Assembly: GCA_025201365.1 (NCBI GenBank)
Contig: JAIXMF010000001.1
Span: 248,001 to 312,000 of the forward strand
Origin: Syncephalis plumigaleata
Lineage: Eukaryota > Zoopagomycota > Zoopagomycetes > Zoopagales > Piptocephalidaceae
Reading direction: 5' to 3'
Length of the DNA: 64,000 nt
The notes under the pieces were generated by a model. It saw only the letters and a list, made by a program, of their open reading frames with translations. It did no database searches and was not told where the DNA came from. Made by a program: the position numbers and the translations under genes. How positions within the stretch are numbered: the stretch's first letter is position 1; each line of letters begins with the position of its first letter. Shown piece by piece: positions 1,501-28,413 of the stretch.

Positions 1501-2654
1501 CCAAATATCTAGCGTTCATTCAGTTGGAGGTTCTGCTTTCCAAGAAGGCAAGTTATTCATACGTAGTCTTATCCGACGTCTGTTAACTTGCTTATAGGTC
1601 GTCCAATCAAATCTACGTTTTCCAAGGAATACATTGAGAAAAACAAGGACACATATGGACTATCGAATATACGCTGGGGTGGTGGAGATGTTATGAGCTT
1701 AGCTTTGCACGAGTAGATTGGAACGGCCGCGATGCCTTTCTGAAATGCGACAGACATTGAAGGAAATAGCTGCATTCAACGTAAGTATATCTATCTATTA
1801 TTCAAATAATCTCACTCATCATTTGATATAAAATAGGCATTGAAGAAATGAAGGAGAATTTGGCCCAAGAAGAAGTTGGACCCTGTCTACATGATAGGTC
1901 AACAAAATGTCATGAATCCCTTGCATCAATTTGCCTTTACTAAGGATGGTCCGGTGGATATTAACTTGGCTGATCCCAAACAGATGTACGTATGTCATCT
2001 TTACAGCTTCGTTAAGGGAATGTCCTTATTAGACTACTTTGAAAAAAGTACCCCTGCTCAAGCATATATTGTTACTGCCAGGATATTACCTGATATTATT
2101 AAGGGTATGCATTATGTCATTCATATATAATATGCTTACTAATTGTTCTGTAGGTTTGCTTTATCTTTACAATGCTCGTATTGTTCATAATGATATAGCT
2201 CCGAGAAGTAAGTAAGCATTTATAATAATTGAGTATGCTAATAATGGAATATAGATATTATACTAGAGCAAGATTCAAATGGCAAATACATTCCAAAGAT
2301 TATAGATTACGATTTAGTAATAGTATTTGATGAAAAGACGAATGACTGGGCTCGTATAAATCCGAACAATAAGGAATACTTGTTACCAGATCCACCTCAA
2401 AAATACTCAGCCTGTCATTCCTTTACCTTTTCGATAACAAAATTTTTGAATGGTTCTTTTTTATCGATAATGACACTTTTAAGAAAGGCTCTGAGCTTTC
2501 CGAGTCAGTCGCTATAGAGAAGTTAAACGTTTTTAACGAATGCCTAATTACTGCTGGCCTAAAGAAAAGAGTACCTGGTTTACCATTAAAACTACCTGAT
2601 GTAGAGCCAGCCCTTCCTTCAATGCGTTATCTCTTAAAGCGTATTACACATTAG
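1500..2654 (+). pseudogene. Disrupted protein-kinase-like gene
   Basis: Several exons read as a divergent protein kinase fold. The first part reads VGGSAFQEG, then GRPIKSTFSKEYIEKN. A later exon (about 1876-2104) encodes a segment ending in SFVKGMSLLDYFEK and is spliced (introns 2105-2153 and 2208-2254) to GLLYLYNARIVHNDIAPRN and then KIIDYDLV. HND sits where kinases have HRD, and DYD where they have DFG. The C-terminal part runs through IFEWFFFIDNDTF to a TAG at 2652-2654. The frame is broken at least three times: near 1709, at a TGA near 1853, and near 2400-2425. The intron 1548-1597 would be GC-AG (G|GCAAGT). With this many breaks in 1 kb it is probably a pseudogene, but other genes here carry one-base indels that look like sequence errors, so a living gene is possible. 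No catalytic claim is made. Confidence 0.6.
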
Positions 2655-5600
2655 AACTTGACCGGTTTACTTGCACCGCTCCTATGCGTGCATTAAGAGG
2701 ACTAAGCCACCGCACTTCCTGGTTCTAATCGATACATATTAGTATACGGTAAGTACCGAGCAGTAGCTGATTCATTCTACTAAAATACTAATAGGTCATT
2801 GAATGGATTAGCAATCATATAGACAATGGAATGTGATGACACTCGCACAGCATGACCATACAACTACGCTATCGTGTATGATCTAATGATTTCATCATCG
2901 ATAAAACATATTCACTGTTCATACAATGTATTCTAGCTTTTAAATGTACTGCTGCAATATGATGTGCTCGTCATTAGGAGTATAGCCAGCAATGGCTTGC
3001 TACGTGTATACAACTAGATATACAATGACTATACAGAATGACTAATGCTAACTGATAATTATGAATGGTGAATCTTGCTTACCTGTATGGTAATTCGCAT
3101 ACGTTGCTTGTATTTCCCTCCATTTCATCGACATTTGCAATAACTATTGCTGGACTAGTCGTTGATGATATCACGTATACCTTCATCTCATTATGGTAGA
3201 CTATTCCACTGATGCAACGTACACTTGCTATGTCAATGTATCGAACATGGCGTGTACGCGTATAGATTGACACATGTCAGTAAAATATAATGCCTATGGA
3301 AATAATAATGATAGAATTATAGATAGAATAGTGCGCGTGCAATGACATGTGCTTAAATAGTCGTGACAGCATTAAGCGTGGAATAGACCTGCGGTGTCAA
3401 CAATTACCGATGACACACGTAAATGTCGACATACTGGTATGATATGTGATGACATTCTCCGCAAAGTCAATGATAATGAGCGAGCCTGTGTACAAGCGCT
3501 GTTGACAAATGCAATAACTATACGATATTGTACTACTACTGCACCATACAACTGCTTACTATGGGTAAAGTGAGATACCGGTCAATGTTTATTATTGTTT
3601 TTATACTGTGCAGCTTGCATGCTTTATCTACATGCCAGTCTACGGGAAAATAACCTGTTGAGATGGCAGTACCATTCCATATGGCATTAATTTGCACGTG
3701 ATAGTAAAAATGCCCTGTTTGTCTATCGCGTTGTACTCCCCCTTATCGGCACGCATCATCATCATCCTCATCGTTATTATTGTCATTAAAGAGTAATTTT
3801 AAAAGCATCGTCATTAGTGTACAAAATTGTGCCAGAACATATGGATATAATCCGATAGGATTAGAAGCGAACGATGCTTCCTAGGAGTGTACTGGTGGAA
3901 TGGCTAGTGTAAATACGATAATGGAAGCATAGCCGTGCCAATCTATACCGTTTAATTTATAATGGATACACATTGTGGTATACATTGTCCTATCAATGAA
4001 AAATGCCGGAAGACACGCATAGCAAGCGATGCAAGATAGGAAAACCGCCGTCTCCTTTGCGTACTGCATGCTGTGTAGGCTAGGCAATTAAAAAAACAGT
4101 TATTTTTGCAACTACACTACTTTGCCGTTTTTATCATAAGCCTAGCTCCGCGACACATGCTTCCTCTAACGCTCCATCTTTTACTCGACAATTCTTCGTC
4201 TTCTCGTTATCACGTAGTTACGTGCGACATTCTGTCGGTTTCTTGAAACTTCTTCATCCTCTTTATCTTCTTATTACTTAACGAACAATTTATTGCTGTC
4301 AAATCTTGACGGAAATCATGTAGGTAACAGCGATGATATACGTGTATATAGATTATTGAAAGCGAGAGCTATGATAGTGCGCGTTTGCAACGAGATACAC
4401 ACACGTTGGATTGGTGCACCTTGTTGTGTACGTGCTGATATATTTCTACGGGATATTTATAAAGTGATAGCGTAGTCTATTATTGTTTTTTATTTTGATA
4501 ATACTCGGACGCAATCGATACGTTTTACTATGCTTACCTACATTAGACATGACTTTTATTCGTGAGTATCGATTAATGTGTCCTAGTACGGTCATGCAGC
4601 TCTTGTTATACTAGCAATCATTGATGGCATGAGATTGCTATTCAAGCATAGTATACACTGCTAGCTGCTAGATATGGTTTATAGACGGAATTGTTGGTTA
4701 CCGAAATATGTCGAATTGATCATGATAATGTCAATGTGATGATAGGAATATGCGTGTGTAGGTGTTTATAAAGCTCAGGCTGATTGATTAGCACTAGTGT
4801 TGCCTTATCGGCTTCACGTGCGTTAAATGGATTTCACCATTTTTTGGTTACAATGTGAGAGTCCTGTTATATTGCGATTAATCGGTAACTATAACTAAGG
4901 CCGGTCAGTATGACTAATTAATTTCCGTAAAAGTGTACACGCCATTTATAGCCTGCGATGAGCATCACATTTATTACTTACGCTAATCGTCGATTTCCTC
5001 GTTCACTTCTTATTTATCTCTTGCTCTTCTTGCTCTTCTTGCTCTCTTATATTCGTGTACATAACCGTATGATAGTGTAGCACCTTGTGAATCATCGAAA
5101 AACGCTCACACTTTATACTGACTCGCTTGCGACACTAGCATTCTCTGCGTTTTTGTTAATATACCATCCATCCAGCCACCTATCTACTCATCTATCAATT
5201 ATTATTTATTAATTCATTGGCTAATTGGTTCATGATCATTTCTTTTTATTGACTCGAATAGCTATCTAATTAACGACATCAACCAACGGCCATCACCTTG
5301 CTATTGGTTCTTCTTGACATCACATTATCGCTCAACAGGCTACTGCAACACATCAGCCTGCCGGTTTGCCACATTAACAGGTACGTATGACTGCTGTTGC
5401 CCCAATAGCGTTTCATTCTCGTTTAGGCCCTGGTCATACACTGCCAGGCTTAGATGGTTGCTTATACGCAAACACCGCATTTGGTATGGGCCACGTCAGA
5501 ATGCAGCGCGGTGTCTCGGTCATGCACTCGTCGTGCCTTTGCCATTGCTTGATGTATTCGTTTTAATGGTCAAATTCACCACCTTTGCCTGCAGTTGGAG

Positions 5601-7198
5601 CATAGGTTTTTGCATGGCGGAATATTTGTGATGGTGTCACAGCATACGGCTTTGGTTAGTTGGCAATTTTCCGCGCTTGTTTCACTACCACTAGTGGTAT
5701 TCATATTACTACGAGAACAAAGCGGCTCTTTGTTAGAATGCTGCGCTTTTTTCCCTTTCGTATACCATTGCCAAACAACCATTTCAACCATTAACTCTTG
5801 TTATCTATGTGCACGAACGAGTATGTACATGTGTGTGTGTGTGTGTATGTGTATACGCGTACTCGTGCAGTACAATCCATTCGTTCGCTCGTACACACAC
5901 ACACTAGTGGTTTGTATGCTGGTCCATGCGCCAATAATATGAAGGACTTCTTCAGGACATGACAGGGTATTACTTTTTTTAGCGGCTATTCCTGATAAAC
6001 CGGAATGTACTTGCTACTTGTACATTTTTCTTTTTGCTTTGCTCCCTGAGTCTTCTGCGCACCGGTGTTTTTCGCATTTGCAGCAAGGATGCAGCCACGT
6101 GTATGAGGGGGTTTTCATTCCACATGGTCACCAAATCTTTTGCCTTGATTAATCCATGATTCTTTTTAATTATTCTTCCTTACGCAGCCAACGAATGCCT
6201 ATACTTAAGCGTTTTCGTTTGTTTGCCTGACATCCTGTACCAGCATTGCGTTTCTCGTCTTTTTTATTTTCGCGCGTTTTTTACTTTTCGCTGTCGTTTT
6301 TATATCATCATCATCATCGTCATCATCGTCATCGTCGTCGTCGTCGTTTATTCCGTTCATCACCTCTCACCTATTATTCTCGCTTCTATAATCTCGTATC
6401 TGCGAATAGTCTATACGTACATTCGTGGAAATACCCATCATCAACATTATCGTTTACTAGTCCGTTTACCAACGGTACCTCCCTCTCCCTCCTACTTCGC
6501 TTCTATCATTATTGTCACATCTCGCGATACTCAGCATTTCGTTTTATTGCGTTTGTATTATTTGCGTCTCTTTTTAACCTATTCACTGAAGCAACCCGCC
6601 CTCTCTCTCACTCTCTCTCCCCTCTCACTCTCTAGTGTATTGATACGAACATCCGTGCAACCTTGCCTTACCGTTCAAACTCAATATTACTATCATTAAT
6701 TCTTTTATTATCTGATCTACTTTATAGCACACCAACTATCCCTTTATTCCATCTATAACAGGCTGTATATATCCGGTTATATTTACTTTCTTTGTCCCTT
6801 GTATTTGTTCCAAAGCCTGTTAGGTACCTGATCATCTTCATAACGGTGATCGTTCAGCCATTCGATCAAATATCCTTGGTGGTACCTCTAATTGTCAAGT
6901 GTGCTAACGCGTAAGTTCCTGGAGGAGTGTATACACACGTACACATACGCGTATCAGGTAAGTTGGTTGTCAGTACGCGAATTGTTTCTTCTTTGTATAT
7001 GTTATTCGTAGAGCGTAGCATTTGTCTGGATCCTCTCCTGGGGAATGATATTTACTTTTCATGCATGTGCACGCGATTTTTATGCACAACTGCAGTGTAT
7101 GGCCTTACCTTTACAAGGAATCACTGCAATCTTATTATCGTCTATAATGGCCAGGCAACGTTGCGTCATGTATATGGAAGAAAGAATGTCTGGCCATT

Positions 7199-7230
<32 letters not shown>
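7199..7230. repeat. (AGT)n microsatellite
   Basis: A run of about ten perfect AGT units in the non-coding region upstream of the zinc-finger gene. CTG/CTA-type imperfect triplet runs also occur at about 8476-8550. No function is visible. Confidence 0.9.
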
Positions 7231-9739
7231 TCCAGATGCACTATCATGCTCGACTATGGCTGTAGTCTCGCCAAGTCGTCCAACTAGGCCTTTTACTTTT
7301 TCATACGCAGCCTGCCATTATGGCAGTTCTGATACCAGTTGTTCAATGGATAGGAAGATGAAAAGAAAAATGCAGATAACCGGAATGGTTGACAGGATTA
7401 CATTACTCTGTAAAGCATGATAATGTAGCCCCTTTGTTGTTGCCATATGTATACATACTACTAGTATTACTAGTATTACTACTACTAGTAAAAGTGGCTG
7501 TTTTCATTGCCATATTGATCAATGCAACACAATCAATCATAGAGCCGGAATAATCATTTTTATTATTGCTAATAATGCTTCTTTCATTTCTATTGATTGT
7601 ACAAGAGATTAGCAATCTGGTGCAAAAGTGCCGTAATGGAATGACGCATCAGCTCTTACATTATCGTTATTTGTTATTTCCCTTGCCAACTGTTGCTCCC
7701 TTATCCTTCCGTCAAGTTGCTTCCTATTGCGCATGCTTATCGCTAGACTAGACTGAACTGGACTAGGCTGAACTGGGCTGTGGCAGATGCATGGAGAAGA
7801 AGCTGCGGTTTCCCCTGGTCTCTGTGAATGCGTGTTCATTAGCCCCTTCTCGTTGCTATCATTATCGTGTACTATTGCTGCTCCCGCTGCCGATGCATCT
7901 ACCCTTCTCCATGTGCGTGCACAGATAAAAATCTCGTACTGTGAGGAGGAGGGGGAGGGGGAGGCCCACTCCACTTTGCGGGATTACGCGATACAGATGG
8001 TGGCGAATTTTCAGCCATAGGATTGTAATCACTCCCCCCCTTGTCTATCGACTGTTTGCCTTTCGCGATAAGCACATGTGATTATTCATTCATTTATTTA
8101 TTTCTTAGTAAGCATTAGTAAATCCATACTTTATTTGAATTATACACGGACGCTACATAAATAGATGACGATAATCATGCTTATCATCATCATTATGGTG
8201 TATTTATTGATCATTGACTAGAGTCATTTCATTTCCTTAATGCTTGTTCGTTATCATCGTAGACTTACGCGCGTACACGCGTACTCGTCGGCGCATTAAC
8301 CGACTTGTCAAGTATGTCATCATTCTTTGTAAAAAAGTGTAAACGAATCCCCTGGTCATTATCCTCGATCATATTGCGTGCATATTTACGCCTTGACTAG
8401 TGCGTGTCATGAGACGCACACATCTAACGAGTGGCATAGTCATTGCTTCTATGACTGCTTCTTCTTTTCTTTGCTTCTACTGCTTCTACTGCTACTGCTA
8501 CTACTGCTACTGCTAGTACTATTACTACTGCTGCTGATACTACTGCTGATGCTGTTTGGTCTCCGTGTAGTTGCCGCTGTCGCCCCTTTGCTGCATCCCC
8601 TTTTCCGAGTGGTACGCTCGTTTTAGATGGCATATGCGTTTTAATGTGTCTCCTGCGCTTGCGTAACCGTTATTAGACTCCCACTCCTACTGGGTCGGGA
8701 TGCGTATACAGCGTCACCAGCAGCCAGCACTCTTTTGCCATATGCCCCTTTTATGCCAACGCACGCGCATTATCTCCATTCCCATTATCCTTGGAATAAT
8801 ATACGAGCGCTGGCGGCCATATAAAATATACACTAGTGACCGTGCGTGTTTCCCCGCGTACATATACAACTTATCGTCGTATCCCCACTAAGTGCGTGTG
8901 TGTGTAATCATATATATATATATTGCTTTTTCTTCTCTCTCTATCTTTTTCTTTCTATATCTTGCATTGGCTGCTGATTGTGTGAGCATTTCTTTTTCTT
9001 TATCGCGAGACAAGCCAACATATAGGTTCTCTCTCACTCTCACTCTCTCGCGTGTGCTTTCTTTTTTATTCTGCGTTTTTGCTCTTCTCTACACGACACC
9101 GTACACATAGTTACTAGTGCAGTGGCAGTTGTGTTGTTTCTCTTTTCACACTTTCAATTCTAGATTGATTTCCAATTTTGTTTACATTACGGTTTTCATC
9201 CAAACCATAAAAAGCAAACAGACTGTTGATCACTCAACGCGTTTGTGGCACATTATCATCGCCTTTACAGTAGCGACACTTCACGTTTGTGCGTTTGAGC
9301 CTCTAACGGTACTTGGTGTATCCTAGTGCCACACTACCTGATTATATCCATTTTGTATTGCTTTCTCTCTTTCGCTCCCTCTTACTCACTATCTCACTAT
9401 CTCATTATCTCACCCACTCTCACACCTTCCCTTCTCCTCACACACACTATTTTCGGTTCTTGATAGGCAAGACGGCAATTACTCAAACCGTCATTATAGA
9501 GCGTCAACCTAGAACGTTGGCTCCGATTTGTCACACACACGGGTAACAGTTGCTTCGCCAACTAGAGTTGCCGTTATCTATTCGCATTATTCCGATTGGT
9601 TTAACCCCGCCATTTTGCGATTGCTTATAATATTTATTTATTATTGTATCCAGACTACTTACTTATTGTTGATCTTGTTCTAGTTATCTATTCATTCGCC
9701 TATTAATTATTAACTCACTCACTTATTAACTCTACCGGT

Positions 9740-17815: not shown

Positions 17816-19180
17816 ATGAAGTTCATGCAAGCTGCCCTTCTATTGGCTTTCGCCGCCACCGTTACTGCTACGCCAGCCTTTGTGCGTCGTAACTATGTAG
17901 CCACTCCAGCACCAGGTGGTGAATTGCCATCCACCCCAGCTCCACAGCCAAGCTACGGCACTGCCCCAGCTCCAGGTGGTGAATCACCATCTACTCCTGC
18001 ACCAAAGCCAGACTATGGTAATGTCCCAGCCCCAGGCGGTGAATTACCATCCACTCCATCCACTCCAGCTCCCAGGCGGTGAATTACCATCTACTCCATC
18101 CACTCCTGCACCAAAGCCAGACTATGGTAATGTCCCAGCCCCAGGCGGTGAATTACCATCTACTCCATCCACTCCAGCTCCAGGTATGGTACCGTCCCAG
18201 CTCCAGGTGGTGAGTTGCCATCTACCAACAACACCACTCCAGGATATGGTAATGTTCCAGCTCCAGGCGGTGAGTTGCCATCCACCAACAACACCACTCC
18301 AGGATACAACCATACCACTCCAGGAGGTGAGTCACCAGCCACTCCAGTTCCAGTTCCAGGATATGGTGAAGCTCCAGCCCCAGGTGGTGAATTACCATCC
18401 ACTCCGGCACCAAAGCCAGACTATGGTAATGTCCCAGCTCCAGGTGGTGAATTGCCATCTACTCCATCCACTCCAGCTCCAGGATATGGTAATGTTCCAG
18501 CTCCAGGCGGTGAGTTGCCATACACTCCATCCACCCCAGCACCCAAGAAATGCATCAAGAAGAAGTACCCAAAGAAGCCCAAGAAGTGCCACAAGAAGCC
18601 AACTCCATACGTCCCAGTCCCAACTCCAGGCGGTGAGTTGCCATCCACCCCATCTACCCCATCCACTCCATACGTTCCAACTCCAGCTCCAGCTGGTAAT
18701 GAGACTTATGGTGGAGAGTCACCTGCCACTCCATCTACTCCATATGTTCCAACTCCAGCTCCAGCTGGTAACGAGACTTATGGCGGAGAATCTCCAGCTA
18801 CTCCAGCTACTCCATCTACTCCATACGTTCCAGCTCCAGTCCCAGCCGGTAACGAAACCTATGGTGGAGAATCCCCAGCTACTCCAATCACTCCAGCCAC
18901 CCCTGTTCCATGCAACAAGACCACCGGCGGTGAACTCCCAACTGGCAACAACACCGTCCCAACTCCAGCTCCATACGTTCCAGCTCCAGTCCCAGCCGGT
19001 AACGAGACCTATGGTGGAGAGTCACCAGCTACCCCAATCACCCCAGCCACCCCTGTTCCATGCAACAAGACCACCGGCGGTGAATTGCCAGCTGGTAACG
19101 AGACCTATGGTGGAGAATCCCCAGCTACTCCAATCACTCCAGCTCCAGTCCCAGCTGGTAACGCCTATGGTGGCTACTAA
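17816..19180 (+). CDS. Secreted Pro/Gly/Thr repeat protein (cell-wall or mucin-like)
   Basis: It begins with a clear signal peptide (MKFMQAALLLAFAATVTATP) followed by FVRRNYVATP. RR could be a Kex2-type site. The body is tandem repeats of units such as GGELPSTPSTPAP and PDYGNVPAPGGE. A Lys/Cys-rich island (KKCIKKKYPKKPKKCHKK) follows, then longer repeats built from PAGNETYGGESPATP and PVPCNKTTGGELP. It ends in NAYGGY with no GPI-type tail. Many Thr and Pro residues suggest heavy O-glycosylation, and NET/NKT are N-glycosylation sites. The frame shifts at about 18073 (an extra C in CTCCCAGG versus the repeat consensus) and back at about 18184 (a missing A in CCAGGTATGG). The two shifts cancel, and the middle still encodes the repeat in the third frame. 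Sequence errors or repeat recombination explain this best. Exact function is unknown. Confidence 0.75.
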
Positions 19181-19533
19181 TTTCAGTTAGGCAAGCTAAT
19201 GTGTTTGGATAACTATAAATTCTCCTCTATTACTATTACTACAAGTACAATTACAACTGATATTTCAGCTTATTAATAAACTGTAATAAATTTATTCTTA
19301 AAGCGTATTATGCATATTGCACTTGTATATATTTATTGATCCATTGTTAGTAAATAATAGCATCATTTCATTTAGCTGGTTGATCGTGTATGCCACCATA
19401 AAATTTGAATATGTTTTACTCTCATTACAATAAACAACAAACGTATTACTGTAAAAATAAGCGAAACATGACACCGTTCCATTCTTCATTCTAATTGCAT
19501 TTCGTTGTTGTTCAACCTTACTTGCCCAACAAC
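19181..19533. other. Intergenic, 3' region and NAXE promoter
   Basis: About 350 bp of AT-rich DNA. AATAAA occurs near 19275, downstream of the secreted gene and usable as its polyadenylation signal. No gene was seen. Confidence 0.6.
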
Positions 19534-20783
19534 ATGACTTTACGGGTATGCACTATCATGGAATTAACTAAAAGAAAAACCAATAACTATGCTAATTCCA
19601 CTTGTTCACTCTAGTACTTGACGCAACAGCTTGCTCAGCAAATTGACACGGAACTAATGAACCCGGAGATTGGTGGGTTTGCCGTCGAGCAATTAATGGA
19701 ACTCGGTATGTACACCTATTTCTGTCGCTTACCCTCTTCGCTAATATGCAACGGATGGTTATCGCTCCTAGCGGGTCTAAGTGTTGCCCAGTCTATCGCC
19801 AAAGAATACGCCACTAAACAGTATCCACGTGTGCTTGTTTGTTGCGGACCCGGTAATAATGGTGGCGATGGTAAGTATGCAGCTCGTTAATTGTTCACTC
19901 GTGTATAACTAATTGTTCAATTTATAGGATTGGTATGCGCGCGTCATTTGGTACATTTTGGCTATCAGCCTGTAGTATATTATCCAAAACCAGGACGTCA
20001 TCAACTATTTCAGCAATTAGTACGGCAATGTCGTAATCTATCAATTCCCATAGCTGATGACGCGCCTCAACGTATGGTCAATGAAGCAGACATTATTGTT
20101 GATTCGGTATTCGGTAGGTTGCTGTTGGTATTGCATGAACACTAGTAGTTACCGATATAATTCATATAGGGTTTAGCTTTAATGGCTCGGTTCGTGAACC
20201 ATTTACTCAAGTAATTAATGTATGTTCATACAGACTTAATACACGATACATTTTGTAAACTAAGTAACGTTTACTATTAGCTATTTCGAACGACGAAACT
20301 GCCTATCGTCTCTGGCAAGTACTATGATTCTATTAAGTATTTAATGGTCTAACTCGATTTTATTTACTATTCACTAGTTGACATTCCATCCGGATGGGAT
20401 GTAGAGCAAGGTATGCTTATTGTAAAGCACAAACAAAGCACAAGCAAACAGTGTATCATTAATAATTATTGCCATTGACATAACTACAATGCTTAGGGTG
20501 TCGTTCATTAGGCGATCAAACGTTTCAACCTGATATGTTAGTCTCGCTGACAGCGCCAAAACAGGGAGCTCGTACATTCCAGGGTAGATTCCACTATCTG
20601 GGTGGTCGATTCATTCCTCCGTAAGTCTCGCGTATGATGTGTATCATTATCATTATTATTATCACTTGCATTGTTACTATGATGCTAACGCAGTGTAGTG
20701 AGATGGCAAAACAATACGAATTAAATCTACCCGATTATCCAGGCACTGATCAATGCGTTCGTCTTCCCACCACCACGCAATGA
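19534..20783 (+). CDS. NAXE: NAD(P)HX epimerase (YjeF N-terminal domain protein)
   Basis: Nine exons give 237 residues with no break: 19534-19545, 19615-19705, 19772-19870, 19928-20113, 20170-20219, 20281-20314, 20378-20410, 20497-20620, 20699-20783. The enzyme interconverts R and S forms of hydrated NAD(P)H so that the partner dehydratase can repair it. Family signatures are all present: [25 protein letters not shown] (nucleotide-binding loop), [39 protein letters not shown] (catalytic Asp region), LTAPKQGA and GGRFIPP. Length matches yeast YNL200C (about 246). No mitochondrial leader is evident, so it is probably cytosolic. The fifth intron (20315-20377) uses a GC donor (G|GCAAGT). The first exon is only 12 nt. 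The gene converges on TAF9, with stops 156 bp apart. Confidence 0.93.
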
Positions 20784-20939
20784 CTAATTGTTCACCATTT
20801 GTAAATAAATACATTGTTTGTTTACCATCCAATTACTAACAAAATTTATTAGTAATTATGTACAAGTTTAGTTGATGCGAATAATACTCTAACAATAGGA
20901 AACAATGACTAGTGCGTGTGTGCGTGTATGTGTGGATTA

Positions 20940-21651
20940 TCACGGATTTGCTGTGGAGCCTTTAGGCGGATTACGCGATTCATCCGTGGACGGTGGCTTT
21001 ACAAGTAAAATGCACGTTTAACATGTATTCTTCATTGGGCATGTACTGCAGAAAGCACTCACCTCGGGTATAATCTGGAAATTAGCACCGGTTAGACAAT
21101 ATTGCTCGGGAGGCAGTCGGATGCCATAACGCTCGGGAATCAATGGAAGCGGTGTGGCGTTCTTTTCCGTGGCCAATTCCATTAGGAACTAGTGTAATAA
21201 TATAATGGATAGCATATGGATTACATGAGTATCATCATTATCATCGTTAATAACAATAATGCTAGTACTACTACTGCTAGTCAATATAAATAGATCGTGT
21301 ATTCGCTTACCTCACGTGGTGGTGGTCCCATGAACGAATTGTTAACTAGTCCTTGAATAGCAAGTTGCACGTCGTCCAGTTCAATATCATGCTTTCCAGC
21401 GTGTTGAGCATAGAGCTGAGCATCCTGGAATACATCCGTCATGTACCCTACTAGTATGTTACTTCTGTTTGATTTAAGAAACGCTAGCAAACGCGCTACT
21501 TACGATGTACGAATTCCATTAGCATTGGAATGATTTTTGGATCGTACTCCTGCACGCCTAAAGATCTAAGGATAAGTGCCATGGTATGCGCCTCTTTAGG
21601 CAACACGGACGAAGCGTTAGTGATGCCAGTCGGGTTAAGTATAGGGTTCAT
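20940..21651 (-). CDS. TAF9: TBP-associated factor TAF9 (histone-fold subunit of TFIID/SAGA)
   Basis: Four exons (21651-21504, 21447-21311, 21188-21063, 20996-20940) encode 155 residues, matching yeast Taf9 (157). The histone fold reads LPKEAHTMALILRSLGV, then YMTDVFQDAQLYAQHAGKHD and IELDDVQLAIQ. It is followed by the diagnostic PPPREV and the C-terminal block ERYGIRLPPEQYCLTGANFQ. It pairs with TAF6 in TFIID and SAGA in the nucleus. The start is the first ATG in frame; upstream codons up to a GTG at 21744 do not look like the family. The acceptor of intron 1 was placed at TAG ending 21448 because it restores FVHRYMTD. The frame is intact. The gene sits just downstream of the micro-exon gene on the same strand. 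Confidence 0.94.
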
Positions 21652-21977
21652 ATTGTGAATGACGATCAAGAATGTCAAGAATATTAAAAGAACAAATGGA
21701 CTAGCTGAGGGAATCAAGAAAGAAAAGCGAATAAACGATTCCACTTTTACTGCGATAATTAATCATGACATCTAAGAAATAGTAATTTGATTAGTATTAC
21801 AATCGATATTCATATTCTCTCTCTCATTTTCATATGAGTCTTTGCTCAATTAACTAAAGGTACATTTGTCTATTGTAGTATATGCAATTTCACCTATAAA
21901 TATCATTAAAGGAATAAATTGAAATCGTCATTGTGTTGAAACTGTCGAGCATTGTAATGGTCAGAATAGGACATATA

Positions 21978-21983
21978 TTTATT
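21978..21983 (-). terminator. Polyadenylation signal AATAAA of the micro-exon gene
   Basis: AATAAA on the minus strand about 150 nt into the terminal exon that starts at 22131. It places the transcript end near 21960, about 300 bp upstream of the TAF9 start codon. Confidence 0.5.
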
Positions 21984-22180
21984 CAATAAATGATTGAATG
22001 ATCTTGTAGATATATTTCTTGATCCAAGGAATAATGACTTGAATGACATGGACACTAAATGAGGGTCTTGCACCAATACATTCTTGACTTGAATACCTAT
22101 AATATCTACTTGATGATGTCCTTGTCTTGCTCTGTAATCATAATGGATTAGTATGGTTATGATGATTGTGGATTACTTAC

Positions 22181-23235
22181 TGTTTAGATCTATCATTCAA
22201 TTAACATATATCGTATTGTGATTAGTACGCCATACATTTAGTAAAAATGATGGCTTACCTCCTACCGTACAGAAATATGTATGGGCCATGTGTCATATTA
22301 TGATTAGTATGCTATACGTTCAGTCAGAACGGTAACTTACACGCTAGTATAGACGGGGACATACGTAGATTGGGTGCCATGTAATAGTTAGTGCCCGTTT
22401 ATTGCAGTCAGCGTGATAACTCACAGGCTAATGTAGACAGGCAAATGGATCGTGTGTCATAGCGTGATTAGTACGTCCATACATTAAAATCAGGTGATAA
22501 CTTACAGGCTGGTATCCATAAATGTATGGAAATCATGTGCCAAATCGTAGTTAGTATGTCATTCATTATAGCCAGAATGATTACTTACAGCCTGTTATAC
22601 ACAAGCATACGTGGATTATGTGCCGATACTGTGGTTAGTACATCCATACATTACAGTTCAAAGTGTTAACTTACAGTCTATTGTATACAGAGATATATAT
22701 TATAATTAGTGTGCCATTCATTATTGCCGGAAATGATCATTTACAAGCTATCATGTAGGAACGTATACCACATCATAGTTAGCACAACCATACATTACAG
22801 TCAGAATGGTAACTTACCATCTATCATACAGGAACATATGTAGGTCGCGTGTAATAGCATAGTTAGTACAACCATGCATTGCAGTCAGAATAGTAACTTA
22901 CAGACTATCATAAGGAATATATACGTGAATCATGTACCATTGTTGTAATTAGTAGTCATTCGATATAGTCAAATAATTACTTACAGCCTGTCGTATACAA
23001 GCATACGTGAAGCATGTGTCATATGTAATTAGCATAGCATAATGAAGGTAAGAATATTAACTTACAGGCTAGTATACAAACATGCGTGGATCGTGTGTCA
23101 TATCATAATTTTAATACATTGTGCATTACAATTAGTATGCTAACTTACAGGCTGTTACATGCCAACGTACAAGAATGGCGAATCATACTGTAGTTAGTAT
23201 TCGTACAATGTAGTCAGAACTTTTACTTACAGGTA
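22181..23235 (-). repeat. Tandem array of intron plus 3-nt exon units, about 80 bp period
   Basis: About 13 units of 70-86 bp, diverged but alignable. Each carries GTAAGTTA, a TTCTGACTG(T/C)AATG(T/C)ATGG word, a TACTAAC/T branch site, a CACATGATCCACGTATG-like word and a TATAC/GATAG acceptor, followed by three exonic bases. Point differences and small indels fall between the splice signals, while the signals themselves stay. The array appears to have grown by duplication of a whole intron plus 3-nt exon. Confidence 0.85.
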
Positions 23236-23571
23236 CTTGTAAGTGTATTCACGTATAATTTATAATACAATTAGTACAGCATTTGTTATGGTCAACAAAT
23301 TAGCTTACCATCTTCAACTAACAAATTAATAGATAGAACAAACATTATAATGCAATTAACACGTCATAACAACCATTTAATATACATGAGCTTACTACCT
23401 ATTGATAATCATCGGTAGGCAATCAAACAATAGACTACGATTAGTACATCAATTGATAAGGTCACGGTCAGACATACCATGACGTTCCTGGGCGGGACTA
23501 GCTTCAACGATGGCCATACTGATGAGAGCGACAACGGCGACGGCAATAGCGATAACGGTAGAGAACTTCAT
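22184..23571 (-). CDS. Secreted micro-exon gene: signal-peptide exon plus 16 tiny exons
   Basis: Exon 1 (23571-23478) encodes a signal peptide (MKFSTVIAIAVAVVALISM, then AIVEASPAQERHG). Downstream are 16 very small exons, each preceded by AG and followed by a 5' splice site: GTA 23398-23396; a 9-mer 23317-23309; TACCT 23235-23231; twelve 3-mers at 23151, 23068, 22987, 22904, 22820, 22747, 22677, 22591, 22508, 22427, 22343 and 22261 (first base of each); and a 9-mer 22189-22181 containing TAA. The 3-mers spell CCT CCT GCT TCT ATG CTT ACT GCT CCT CCT CGT GAG. Spliced together, the tail after ERH is GIEDVPPPASMLTAPPREI, 50 residues in all. Introns are 67-83 nt, nearly all with GTAAG donors and TACTAAC/T branch sites, and usually no AG between branch site and acceptor. 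An intron of 49 nt (22180-22132) and a terminal exon from 22131 follow in the 3' UTR. No homologue is recognised and the role is unknown. The splicing is inferred from sequence. Confidence 0.7.
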
Positions 23572-23951
23572 ATTGATATTAGTCTAATGGAATGGATAGA
23601 CAGATAAGTTGATTAGAACGAGAATAGAAAGTAGAGTAGAGTAGAGTAGAATAATAAGGCAGTGGTATATACGAGTAGTGATAGGTAGAATAGAGTAGAA
23701 GAGCGAGTATAATCGTCATTGTTTATCATTCCTAATTATTGTTGGTAGTTTTAATCCAACAGTTTTCGTGTACTGATCGAATGAGTTGGTCCGGATTCTG
23801 TTCAAATCAAACAAGAAAAAAAACAATATCGGAACAGCAAGACCGTATTCTTTTATTTCCGTGTCTGCTTGACGACTAGCATCGTTTCCTCTCCTGTTTC
23901 CAGGTGTTTATGCTTGTGTTCGTCTCTTAATAACGGTGTCGTTTGATCGTA
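23572..23951. other. Divergent promoter, micro-exon gene / TOM70
   Basis: A 380 bp head-to-head spacer. It contains the TATA box and CT-rich leader of the minus-strand gene and, on the plus side, a T/C-rich leader before the TOM70 ATG (about 23840-23940). No coding potential was seen. Confidence 0.55.
23666..23671 (-). promoter_or_regulatory. TATA box of the micro-exon gene
   Basis: TATATA on the minus strand 95 bp upstream of the ATG at 23571. A CT-rich stretch (complement of the GTAGA repeats near 23630-23700) lies beside it and forms part of the divergent promoter shared with TOM70. Confidence 0.5.
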
Positions 23952-26354
23952 ATGTCTAACGCAACTACACTTCGTGAGAAAGCCGCCCGTATGGTGGAGG
24001 ATAAAGATTGGCGCGTACTAGCAGGTGCCGCGGCTATTGCGGCGCTCACCGGTCTTGGCGTTTGGTGGCTAATCAGCGGCGACAAGTCGTCCGGTGGCGC
24101 TAAGGGTGGAAAGCGACGAATCAAGAAGAAGAAGAAGACCAAGAAGGCTGGTGTGTCCGCTTCTCGGGATCTCGACGCGTCGAAATCTGATGCCACGGTA
24201 GCAGACGAGGACGATATTAGTAAGTAGAAGAATGCGCGTAAGCACTAATAGGGAACATTGACAATAATAATATGTTGTATTAGTTAACTACACTGACGAG
24301 CAAATCGGTGAACTCTCAGAAAAGGTAAGCGTATGGAACGAGGATGAATAATAGTGGTATATAACTGGAGAAAGTGCACGTTACTTACTCTGATTATGAC
24401 GGTTGTAGGAGCGAAGAGCACACGCTCAAACCATGAAGACAAAGGGTAATACGGATTATGCGGCCAAGAAATACGAGTCTGCTATCGTTGGCTACACGCA
24501 AGCCATCAAGTTCTATTCGGAGGACCCGGTGTTCTATGCCAATCGTGCTGCATGCTACCTTAGCGTTGGCCGCTACCATGATTGTATTCGCGACTGTGAC
24601 GAAGCATTGAAGCGCGATAGCATGTACATTAAAGCGCTTAATCGACGAGCGGCAGCGCGTGAAAACTTGATGGAGTATGAGGAGGCCGTAAATGGTACGT
24701 GTACTATGACATATCATCATGCATTCGATAGTCTATAACATCGTATCCGCAATGTAGATTACACGGCTTGCTGTATTATTGATGAATTTAAAAATCAAAA
24801 CTTTGCTGTTGCCATGGAGCGTGCATTAAAGGCGTTAACCGAGGAGAAGACCAAGGAAGTGTTAAAGGTGAATAGTAATAATAATAATAGAGCTAACTAC
24901 TATGGTACGTGATTTATTAACGAATATACATGTCAATAGGAACGAGAGAGCAAAGATCTCGGATTTCCATCAGGCTACGTGATCGCTTCCTATTTAGAGG
25001 GATTCCGTTGCTGTAAGTTATTGTAATTACCGTTGAATAATGTCAATTCTTGTTAATTACTTATGTGCATATATGCGCATGTAGGCATAAAGGCAGGTGT
25101 AGAGGAAGCACTATCTAGTATACCAGAGGATTCATCGCAAGCAGGAGACGACGCTTATCGATCTGCATTGACAGCCTTGTTGGAAGAGAAATACGCGGAT
25201 GCCGAGAAATTGATCATTCAAGCGGTGGAGGCCGGCTGTACTCGACAGCATCATGCCTTTGCGTTGTATGCCATGTTCTTTGGTCTACGGGGCAATATGC
25301 TTGCCGCTATGCGTAACTTTTCGCATGCTTTAGAGTTGAAGCCAAATGATGTAGAAACTCTTGTATTACGAGGAGCGACACTATTGCAACTTGGTGATGT
25401 GGCCGCCGGTATGGAACAATTTACACAGGCATTAGCAATCGATGATGCCAACGCAGACGTGTATTATAATCGGTAAGCATATTGATCATTTTACATTCTA
25501 CTTATTTACTAATGACTATTTATCATGTCGTGCTAATAGTGGACAAGGTATTTATCTAATTACTACTATACGTGTACATTATAAATGAATAGAATACTTA
25601 CTCTTGAATTAGGTTATTTCATTCAGGGAGATTTGGCCAATGCCGCTGCTGATTACAAGAAGGCGATTGAACTGGACGATTCGCGATCAGTAGCGTTCAT
25701 TCAGCTTGGCATGACCCAGTATCGTCTTGGAGAGAAACGAGCCGCCGAAGCCACATTCCGTCGAGCTGCACGCGCGTTCCCCGACTCGGCACACGTACGT
25801 ATATTCCATTCTGAGCTGCTGATTGACCAGCAACGCTTTGATGATGCGGAGAAACTGTTGGAAGAAGCGACCAAACTGGATCCAACCAATGCATTGGCCT
25901 GGGTGAACCGAGCACTATTATACATGCAACAGAAAGGAGATCCCACTGGAGCAGAGGAGTTGCTTAAGAAAGCCATTGAAGGTATATGTGGAAATGGAAA
26001 GACTATCATTTACTAGTTATGCTAATGCATTATATACACACACATATATGTAGTGGACAACGAATGCGAGGCTGCCATGATAAGTTTAGCGCAGATATAC
26101 TTGCAACAAAGCAAGATGGCCGATGCACTTGCACTATTCGAACGTGGTGTGGAATTGGCACGTACAGAACAGGAAATCTCTACAATGGTCGGATATTGCG
26201 AGGTAGGCATTCTTATTTTTAGTACAATGAGCATTATTACCGTCATATTAATTCTATTTCCGTCGTCGATTAGGCCACAAGAACACAAATCATGTTTACA
26301 AAACAGCACCCGGCACTTGCTAGTCGTCTTACTGCTCTACATGGCGGTTTCTAA
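23952..26354 (+). CDS. TOM70: Mitochondrial import receptor TOM70
   Basis: Ten exons give 590 residues with no break (yeast Tom70 is 617). Exons: 23952-24219, 24284-24324, 24409-24694, 24758-24867, 24940-25012, 25085-25472, 25540-25547, 25613-25981, 26054-26202, 26274-26354. An N-terminal membrane segment (LAGAAAIAALTGLGVWWLI) is followed by a Lys-rich stretch, as in outer-membrane-anchored Tom70. TPR repeats follow: a Hsp70/Hsp90-binding clamp (KTKGNTDYAAKKYESAIVGY, then FYANRAACYL) and a C-terminal preprotein-binding array (GDLANAAADYKKAIELD, WVNRALLYMQQKGDPTGAEE). Exon 7 is only 8 nt (TGGACAAG). It is required for frame and for the conserved RGQxYFIQGDL motif. The start is the first ATG. 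The gene diverges from the micro-exon gene. Confidence 0.95.
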
Positions 26355-27376: not shown

Positions 27377-28413
27377 ATGAAGAGCATTAACAAGTCAGTT
27401 ACACTACTTTCGATTGGCACGTTGGTCGTACTACTTGCCGCGGTATCGAGCTCACAGCCACAATTTAAACGACGAAATTACGCCAGCACTGGTGAAACTC
27501 AACGATACGAGGTAGTAACAGGTGTCTACAAACCTCAAGTTACACAACCGGCACCAGCTCCTGGTACCTACTGTCCCTATGGTATGAAGATGGGCGGTGA
27601 ATGTATGGACAAGCAGCCCCAATGTCCCGAATGTCCCTATGGCAAGCATGCCAATGGCACCTGTGCTAGTGCACCACCGTCTGTGTCTATGGCGTGGATG
27701 CCAATGGTAATTGTGCCACCACAGCTAATAACACCAACACTTGCCAGTATGGTATGAGTGCCAGTGGCGCTGGATGTAACGAGCCCAAGCCACCAACCGT
27801 CTGTGTCTACGCCACCAATCCCGATGGTACCTGCAAGACTAAGGAGGAATGCGATAAGGACAAGCAACCAGACCAAGTCAATGGCTACGACGGCAAGATT
27901 CCTAGCAATAACAACGACAATGCTTATGAAGATATTGTTTTTGTAGGCGAGGATAGTTATAAGGGCCAGGATAGTTATAAACATACCGGTAGCTATGAAG
28001 GCGGCAATAGCTATGAAGGCAAGGATAGCCACAAGGGCAAAGACAGCTATGAAGGCAAGGATAGCCACAAGGACAAGAATACCAACAAGGATAAGGATAG
28101 CAACAAGGACAAGAGCAGCTACGATAACGACAACAGCTATGAAGGCAAGGATAGCCACAAGGGCAAAGACAGCTATGAAGGCAAGGACAGCCACAAGGGC
28201 AAAGACAGCTATGAAGGCAAGGATAGCCACAAGGACAAGAATACCAACAAGGATAAGGATAGCAACAAGGACAAGAGCAGCTACGATAACGACAACAGCT
28301 ATGAAGGCAAGGATAGCTATAAAGATACCAACAGCTATGAAGGCAGCAATAGTTATGAAGGCAGCAATAGCTATGAGGGCGGTAATGGCTATCCTATTGC
28401 AACAGACTATTAG
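27377..28413 (+). CDS. Secreted Cys-motif and Lys/Asp/Ser/Tyr repeat protein
   Basis: A signal peptide (MKSINKSVTLLSIGTLVVLL...) leads into QPQFKRRNYASTGE, close to the FVRRNYVATP junction of the secreted gene at 17816. Residues about 60-155 hold five copies of a C-x-Y-(G/A)-x(5-8)-C motif (CPYGMKMGGEC, CPYGKHANGTC, CVYGVDANGNC, CQYGMSASGAGC, CVYATNPDGTC). The rest is a hydrophilic repeat of SYEGKDSHKGKD, KNTNKDKDSNKDK and NSYEGSNSYEG units, ending in GYPIATDY with no GPI tail. The frame shifts once near 27675-27690, in CACCACCGTC, where one base appears to be missing compared with the later copy CCACCAACCGTC. Function is unknown. A wall-associated or extracellular matrix role is possible. 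Confidence 0.7.
28014..28314 (+). repeat. Coding tandem repeat (15-nt and 30-nt units, about 120-nt higher order)
   Basis: Units of GGCAAGGATAGCCACAAG and GGCAAAGACAGCTATGAA alternate. A larger block (KDSHKDKNTNKDKDSNKDKSSYDNDNSYEG) occurs twice almost identically, at about 28060-28140 and 28225-28310. The near identity points to recent duplication. Confidence 0.85.

Follow-up and report, generated by a model that had tools for sequence, protein, structure and literature searches.

The locus described here raises the question of whether a gene can be built largely from exons that hold a single codon each, and whether such a gene would stand alone. It lies on the minus strand of a 64,000-nt stretch of the genome of Syncephalis plumigaleata (assembly GCA_025201365.1, contig JAIXMF010000001.1, positions 248,001 to 312,000), which is called the window in the following. 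A NUBP1-like protein encoded in the window is identical to a deposited protein of this species. Syncephalis belongs to the Zoopagales and is a genus of mycoparasites. We regard it as highly probable that the window gene is a protein-coding member of a large Syncephalis family in which a leader exon and sequentially spliced one-codon exons would yield a secreted peptide.

Read base by base, the minus strand carries a 94-nt leader exon followed by thirteen exons of 3 nt, two of 9 nt and one of 5 nt, all in frame (Table 1), which is the series that a preliminary description of this DNA had put forward. Fifteen of the 16 micro-exons measure 3 or 9 nt and the codon exons following the 5-nt exon are in phase 0. 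The spliced frame, ...ERH GIEDVPPPASMLTAPPREI, stays open up to a TAA in the last micro-exon (22189-22181), as had likewise been claimed, and the predicted product is MKFSTVIAIAVAVVALISMAIVEASPAQERH-GIEDVPPPASMLTAPPREI*. The signal-peptide exon expected at the start of the gene is present in so far as the leader, MKFSTVIAIAVAVVALISMAIVEAS, looks by eye like a hydrophobic secretion signal that is conserved in the family. With 62% identity to the leader of the deposited protein P0121 and with ERH where most of the fetched leaders have RR, the window copy belongs to the more divergent members. Our parser recovered 12 of the thirteen 3-nt exons, CTT with its GTAAAT donor being the exception. Sequence resembling the 3'-UTR exon of the window was seen 3' of the stop exon in 17 fetched places and starts exactly with AGCAAGAC in four of them.

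Table 1. Features of the predicted micro-exon gene, in transcript order and in window coordinates
Feature	Position	Strand	Remark
Exon 1: start codon, signal-peptide-like leader MKFSTVIAIAVAVVALISMAIVEASPAQERH and one base (94 nt, phase 1)	23478..23571	-	leader matched in 150 places genome-wide
3-nt exon GTA, phase 1	23396..23398	-	
9-nt exon TTGAAGATG	23309..23317	-	
5-nt exon TACCT, brings the frame to phase 0	23231..23235	-	exon lengths of 2 mod 3 in many other parsed members
3-nt exon CCT (P)	23149..23151	-	
3-nt exon CCT (P)	23066..23068	-	
3-nt exon GCT (A)	22985..22987	-	
3-nt exon TCT (S)	22902..22904	-	
3-nt exon ATG (M)	22818..22820	-	
3-nt exon CTT (L), donor GTAAAT	22745..22747	-	missed by the parser; set by hand
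3-nt exon ACT (T)	22675..22677	-	
3-nt exon GCT (A)	22589..22591	-	
3-nt exon CCT (P)	22506..22508	-	
3-nt exon CCT (P), donor GTGAGT	22425..22427	-	
3-nt exon CGT (R)	22341..22343	-	
3-nt exon GAG (E)	22259..22261	-	
9-nt exon ATCTAAACA, made up of the last codon, the stop TAA and 3 nt	22181..22189	-	ATCTAAACA also in intronless paralogue L066, there directly before 3'-UTR-like sequence
Last intron, 49 nt, after the stop codon	22132..22180	-	
3'-UTR exon, starts AGCAAGACAAGGACATCATCAAG; AATAAA at 21983-21978	21978..22131	-	3' end of exon provisional

The 16 introns between the 17 window exons are 67-83 nt long and all of them have a GT donor and an AG acceptor, the donors being GTAAGT in ten cases, GTAAGC in three and GTATGT, GTAAAT and GTGAGT in one case each. 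The motif TACTAAY occurs in 8/16 introns under the first-match rule of our script, and TACTAAT was found by eye in three more (introns 1, 5 and 13). Under the same rule, which leaves the branch of intron 5 unassigned, 12 of the 15 introns with an assigned branch lack an AG between branch and acceptor, while three contain one. The motif AG-NNN-GTRAG is present 13 times on the minus strand of 22181-23571, whereas 2000 dinucleotide-preserving shuffles average 0.06 occurrences and never exceed 2; 12 of the 13 sites coincide with exons of our model and one, as judged by eye, falls inside the first 9-nt exon. No such site occurs on the plus strand of the same region, and the whole window contains 27 on the minus and 11 on the plus strand. 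The preliminary description is therefore confirmed both in the regular succession of AG, three bases and GTAAGT and in the statement that most units keep a TACTAAC/T branch site without an AG before the acceptor. Tandem Repeats Finder listed no tandem array of about 82 bp in window positions 20000-26000, so that the series is not a fresh satellite. The bodies of 12 window introns are on average 63% alike, compared with 55% for shuffled partners, indicating that the splice sites stayed while the intron bodies diverged. Rfam and tRNA scans of the window gave no matches. Elsewhere in the window, two repeat-rich open reading frames are found on the plus strand, a long proline- and serine/threonine-rich one resembling cell-wall proteins at 17901-19190 (GGELPSTPSTPAPG units) and a lysine/glutamate-rich tandem repeat with a cysteine-rich start at 27670-28413 (SYEGKDSHKGKD units).

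The gene does not stand alone. It had been presented as a single micro-exon gene of a fungus, which is correct as regards a fungal gene with a run of one-codon exons but understates the scale, as the window gene is one member of a genome-wide phenomenon in S. plumigaleata. The arrangement of a one-codon exon between two donors (GTAAGT-intron-AG-NNN-GTAAGT) is found 1960 times in the 32.6-Mb assembly and 118 times with the reversed pattern as control. Spacers of other lengths gave 36 matches for four bases (control 222), 113 for six bases (control 46) and 125 for two bases (control 59), and many of the latter simply represent the stop exon TAAGCR. A pattern for the terminal exon, YAG-NNN-TAAGCR-GTAAGT, occurs 52 times genome-wide and never in the control; in four of the 52 matches NNN itself is TAA. 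The leader exon has 150 matches genome-wide (150 of 163 candidates scored, E up to 0.004), a number that includes duplicates and that is raised, like the pattern counts, by near-identical duplicate contigs in the assembly. The stretches C186 and C362, C370 and C1, and C220 and C318 are near-identical pairs, probably haplotypes, and inflate gene counts. Of the 497 3-nt exons from the fetched loci, 265 agree exactly with the pattern. Extrapolation to the whole genome yields about 3,450 one-codon exons including haplotype duplicates, a rough figure since the loci had been chosen mostly for their arrays. Two further arrays (C58:10437-12755 and C223:612325-614641) feature a distance of often 6 nt between AG and GTAAGT, possibly representing two-codon exons or tandem acceptors.

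For a closer view of the family, 24 arrays were parsed in 26 fetched stretches, leaving out L058 as a near copy of L057. The parser scores donors, branch sites and acceptors and grants a bonus for 3-nt exons; it hence favours this length, and the share of 3-nt exons among all parsed exons (497/609) has to be read accordingly, while the pattern counts given above and a set of 356 introns used below are independent of it. Each array contains 4-50 3-nt exons, and the median intron length is 80 nt. A leader exon is linked to 17 of the 24 arrays and seven have no linked leader. The frame of seven leader-linked arrays is open to the terminal stop exon (L041, L044, L048, L049, L054, L059 and L062, with L059 ending at a TGA within that exon), that of four is open but incomplete (L046, L057_61, L060 and L063), and the machine-parsed frame of the remaining six is closed or shifted (L042, L043, L045, L047, L053 and L055). 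A mis-parsed longer exon seems likely to account for some of these failures and decay for others (L042). The predicted products of L054 and L062 end in ...CSDGYHYVWSWETEQCCPNVGSGPCYDV and ...APVPVGIPGGFRAQDIKHPDLPPQ, respectively, and the predicted tail of the array on C362 reads NPINGSMDYVYWKP.... Locus L056 has a terminal exon but no recognised array, and the leader exons of L039 and L042 are altered. Pfam assigned none of eight proteins to a family above cut-off. A match of the predicted L054 product to Conotoxin stayed below threshold (17 bits, cut-off 25.1) and was taken as chance or signal-peptide likeness.

Several observations point at translation of the single codons. Not one stop codon is present among the 497 parsed 3-nt exons, where 14.8 would be expected from base composition by position, and the 3-nt exons of 356 distinct introns picked by pattern alone are equally free of stops (10.6 expected). 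All 20 amino acids are represented, with tryptophan and cysteine at 3-4 times their frequency in 11 picked ordinary open reading frames of the window. The codon usage of the one-codon exons gave no coding signal beyond third-base composition.

Selection on splicing, which had also been proposed at the outset, is supported by the avoidance of AG in the introns. In the 356 introns, the AG dinucleotide reaches 0.13 of expectation in the last 40 nt compared with 0.51 in the 5' part. Changes were also counted in 1003 pairs of equally long introns that differ by no more than 25%, a comparison that allows for shared ancestry and in which the pairs overlap: 3-32 nt before the acceptor, AG-creating changes make up 8 of 18,090 opportunities compared with 2903 of 40,399 for changes to A or G that create no AG, and in the 5' part of the intron the corresponding values are 133 of 13,754 and 1720 of 23,649. 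AG is avoided in both parts of the intron and far more strongly near the acceptor, just as scanning for the acceptor would predict. The distance between branch and acceptor in the arrays has its mode at 41 nt; a hairpin that would shorten this distance was considered and discarded, as the last 36 nt fold no better than shuffled sequence (58 of 120 lower). Two comparisons of closely related loci were uninformative: the allelic pair L057/L058 (5/1280 intron, 0/76 exon and 0/171 splice-site bases changed) holds too few changes to separate exon from intron, and the rates for L045/L055 (3/138 exon and 45/1384 intron bases) are not distinguishable.

Deposited protein models are perhaps ab initio predictions and hence no proof of transcription; all the same, some of them follow the arrays codon by codon. 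P0121 (BDF22DRAFT_685769) matches its own genomic locus only over the first 34 residues. Its last 40 residues, NPINGSMDYVYWKPIVPGYWGPINGLCYTPSMEKECAPEK, correspond to 40 one-codon exons that follow each other in the same order over 3.5 kb, with a few others omitted. Between leader and tail the model departs from our parse (GRKFMYINYSK). A plain pattern scan lists 42 codons at this locus, 39 of which were recognised by eye in the protein; the three absent ones are consistent with omission of the three exons with GTAGGT donors, where for one C the omitted exon may be either of two neighbouring TGT exons. The M of the tail is an ATG with donor GTACGT, and it is here, after 31 of 40 residues, that the greedy match of our script ended. 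The second half of the tail was predicted from the first before the letters of the corresponding DNA were read, and the prediction held. In P0123, 18 successive residues equal 18 successive one-codon exons of L063; by eye, the model omits TGC (donor GTAGGT), GGA (GTGAGT) and a 9-nt and a 6-nt exon with GTAAGC donors. P0122 and L060 have only six residues in common. Several other deposited members appear by eye to run into intron 1 or the 3' UTR, which suggests that secretome lists for S. plumigaleata are partly wrong. Searches with family proteins retrieved matches among Syncephalis and ncbi/jgi/ena proteins only (8 and 28). Among the jgi and ena entries, P0140-P0145, P0147 and P0148 have leader exons and apparently stem from related species; some run into a similar intron 1 (GTSGHGHIN, GMSGHGRIN), and the first exon-intron boundary therefore seems common to species beyond S. 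plumigaleata.

Relatives exist in which the codons are contiguous. L064, L065 and L066 each comprise the leader, a short tail and a stop that runs on into 3'-UTR-like sequence, with no intron recognised; they either represent the ancestral state or arose by cDNA-mediated intron loss. The joined last junction, TAAGCR followed directly by AGCAAGACAAGGACATC, which is the expected splice product in arrays such as L045, L054 and L056, is contiguous at 26 places in the genome (two exact, 13 with one and 11 with two mismatches) and at none in the controls; on comparison by hand, 18 of the 26 follow a leader-exon match on the same strand at a distance of 3-139 nt. L066 carries the same stop exon as the window gene. 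At one of the 18 places, C2:526871-526991, no more than 3 nt lie between the leader match and the joined stop-exon/3'-UTR sequence, as would be seen if every codon exon were missing.

A second group of arrays, L040 (about 2384-7479, minus strand), L050 and L052, lacks the MKFSA leader, opens with ATG-CTG-AAGCAGAC-GAG in our parse and mixes one-codon exons with exons of 15-27 nt that encode LEAEKQR/LEEANRR-like coiled-coil pieces. Residues 1-111 of the deposited protein P0136 match one contiguous open reading frame (C318:1455923-1456258, 96% identity). When exons not divisible by three are removed before joining, the spliced L040 peptide aligns to P0136 with a score of 110 (maximum of 500 shuffles, 54), with identities at 20 of 43 aligned residues from one-codon exons and at 14 of 41 from longer exons; BLASTP of this pair, as a single comparison, gives E = 3e-10. 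The L052 peptide scores 72 (shuffle maximum 42), and the L050 peptide, with a score of 54 and a shuffle maximum of 61, is not significantly similar. The alignments of L040 and L052 indicate that what is a contiguous run of codons in one gene is divided among separate one-codon exons in another.

A possible course of expression of such a gene is as follows. The conserved 94-nt leader exon would provide the secretion-signal-like peptide, and the tandem introns of about 80 nt behind it, most of them parted by a single codon, would each be removed by intron definition, most simply one by one from 5' to 3'. After removal of an intron, the codon would terminate an enlarged exon and the following GTAAGT could serve as donor, so that splicing would resemble a recursive-splicing ratchet that leaves three bases per step. 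Given a strong GTAAGT and a TACTAAY-like site whose commonest distance to the AG is 41 nt, with little or no AG in between, each intron should be removable by itself, and sequential removal in the 5' to 3' direction would keep splicing factors from clashing on so short an exon. Since only 3 nt separate the stop codon, in the last micro-exon, from the final junction, nonsense-mediated decay is not expected. The product would be a secreted peptide of about 40-80 residues with a tail that varies from gene to gene. We infer splicing in vivo, its order, secretion and a role in contact with fungal hosts from the genome sequence.

Other readings have to be weighed against this one. The arrays could be decayed satellite-like DNA with intron-like letters, the mRNA joining the leader directly to the 3'-UTR exon. 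The units within arrays are indeed related, some members look degenerate (L056, L039 and L042) and the arrangement at C2:526871-526991 resembles a product devoid of codon exons; the complete lack of stops in 497 codons, the depletion of AG-creating changes, the agreement with deposited proteins and the homology to a contiguous open reading frame nevertheless render this non-coding interpretation very improbable. That the family is real and the window copy alone is dead, a drifting relic, would fit its divergent leader with RH instead of RR, its single GTAAAT donor and its stop exon ATCTAAACA in place of NNNTAAGCR. We consider this unlikely, however, because the frame is open, its codons contain no stop, GT and AG are intact at all 16 introns and intronless L066 shares the very same stop exon. 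Yet another proposal, which extends the variant-making suggested in the preliminary description, accepts the coding capacity and assumes that 3-nt exons are often skipped, one gene giving rise to many peptides that differ by single residues. A codon exon in phase 0 can be removed without a change of frame, and both P0121, with its three missing codons, and P0123, with its four missing exons, could be taken as examples. Most donors are strong, though, several of the omitted exons have weak donors that a gene caller would also pass over, and retention of the codon in most between-locus comparisons (see below) suggests that a fixed sequence matters, so that frequent combinatorial skipping appears possible but rather doubtful to us.

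The history of the arrays is a separate matter. Among 21 pairs of units from the same locus whose flanks on both sides reach a similarity of 88% or more, 16 have different codons, ten of them at all three bases, whereas among 44 pairs from different loci with similar flanks the codons differ in 14 and are kept in 30; L055 was left out of this comparison. Within arrays, the codons look far more changeable than the adjoining introns, which could be due to diversifying selection or to conversion among introns with selection keeping the codons. The same 16 of 21 pairs may be read as if introns had been copied independently, and together with the existence of intronless paralogues they would be compatible with an origin by insertion, introner-like intron copies having split an intronless ancestor between its codons, rather than by tandem duplication of codon-plus-intron units; the product would be the same. 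An exact spacing of every 3 nt is hard to picture for such insertions, on the other hand, and the intronless copies could equally stem from cDNA-mediated intron loss. Moreover, of 26 pairs of introns with a similarity of 95% or more, 15 have the upstream and 13 the downstream codon in common (baseline 3%), showing that codons also travel with introns. We see insertion as a somewhat doubtful option. A little more credit, though still tentatively, may be given to the idea of a spliceosome that works as a codon assembler: one-codon exons, numbering thousands, would constitute a stock of intron-plus-codon cassettes, peptides would evolve by gain, loss and replacement of single codons, the introns, kept spliceable, would supply homology for recombination, and occasional skipping might add variants that meet host fungi.

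If the predicted mode of expression is correct, the Syncephalis arrays test how small and how densely packed exons can be, suggest that such a gene can be sustained by intron definition alone and provide a case where a codon might be acquired, removed or exchanged as a single unit. According to the preliminary description, micro-exon genes of this plan are not known from fungi, nor any with runs of single-codon exons, and in keeping with this we found neither an earlier report of one-codon exon arrays nor a paper on this Syncephalis family in the searched literature; as most subscription papers and preprints lie outside it, this negative result is weak evidence. Reported 3-nt exons are isolated cases in the literature consulted (e.g. 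PMC7392893).

The micro-exon genes (MEGs) of schistosomes had been named as the model for the plan of the window gene. They number 35 genes, have 10-20 exons between 6 and 81 bp long (3-81 bp according to the abstract), most often 15 bp, and contain introns that range from 100 to almost 5000 bp (PMC10526429). Like the Syncephalis arrays with their predicted products, they combine many small in-frame exons with secreted variable products and are hard for automatic annotation. The parallel holds for the leader with its apparent secretion signal and for short exons that are mostly multiples of three, but not for sizes: exons in the fungus mostly consist of one codon and introns of about 80 nt, unlike the typical 15-bp exons and the introns of up to 5 kb in the MEGs. 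The likeness is one of plan, compared by description. Aphid bicycle genes, described as having on average about 17 exons and almost all internal exons in phase 2 (PMC9168663), resemble the Syncephalis family as rapidly evolving putative effectors made from many small exons, whereas the codon exons in the window are in phase 0 and 3 nt long. That fungal spliceosomes handle tiny exons is evident from a 1-nt exon in Fusarium CYP621A, said to have read support (PMC12940212), and from a micro-exon in Trichoderma Xlr2 (PMC11121469). These are, however, isolated exons in ordinary genes and not tandem arrays.

Introner elements are many related introns spread through a genome, with copies inserted at new sites with target-site features. 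In Syncephalis, the related introns seen in the fetched arrays instead sit at codon spacing, and their similarity is partly independent of the flanking codons. At the ratchet points of recursive splicing an acceptor abuts a donor and no exon is left in the mRNA. Such points are known from long introns of Drosophila (PMC8605326). The two systems have in common that acceptor and donor are juxtaposed and would be used in succession, but in Syncephalis three bases lie between AG and GTAAGT, and each step would leave a codon behind.
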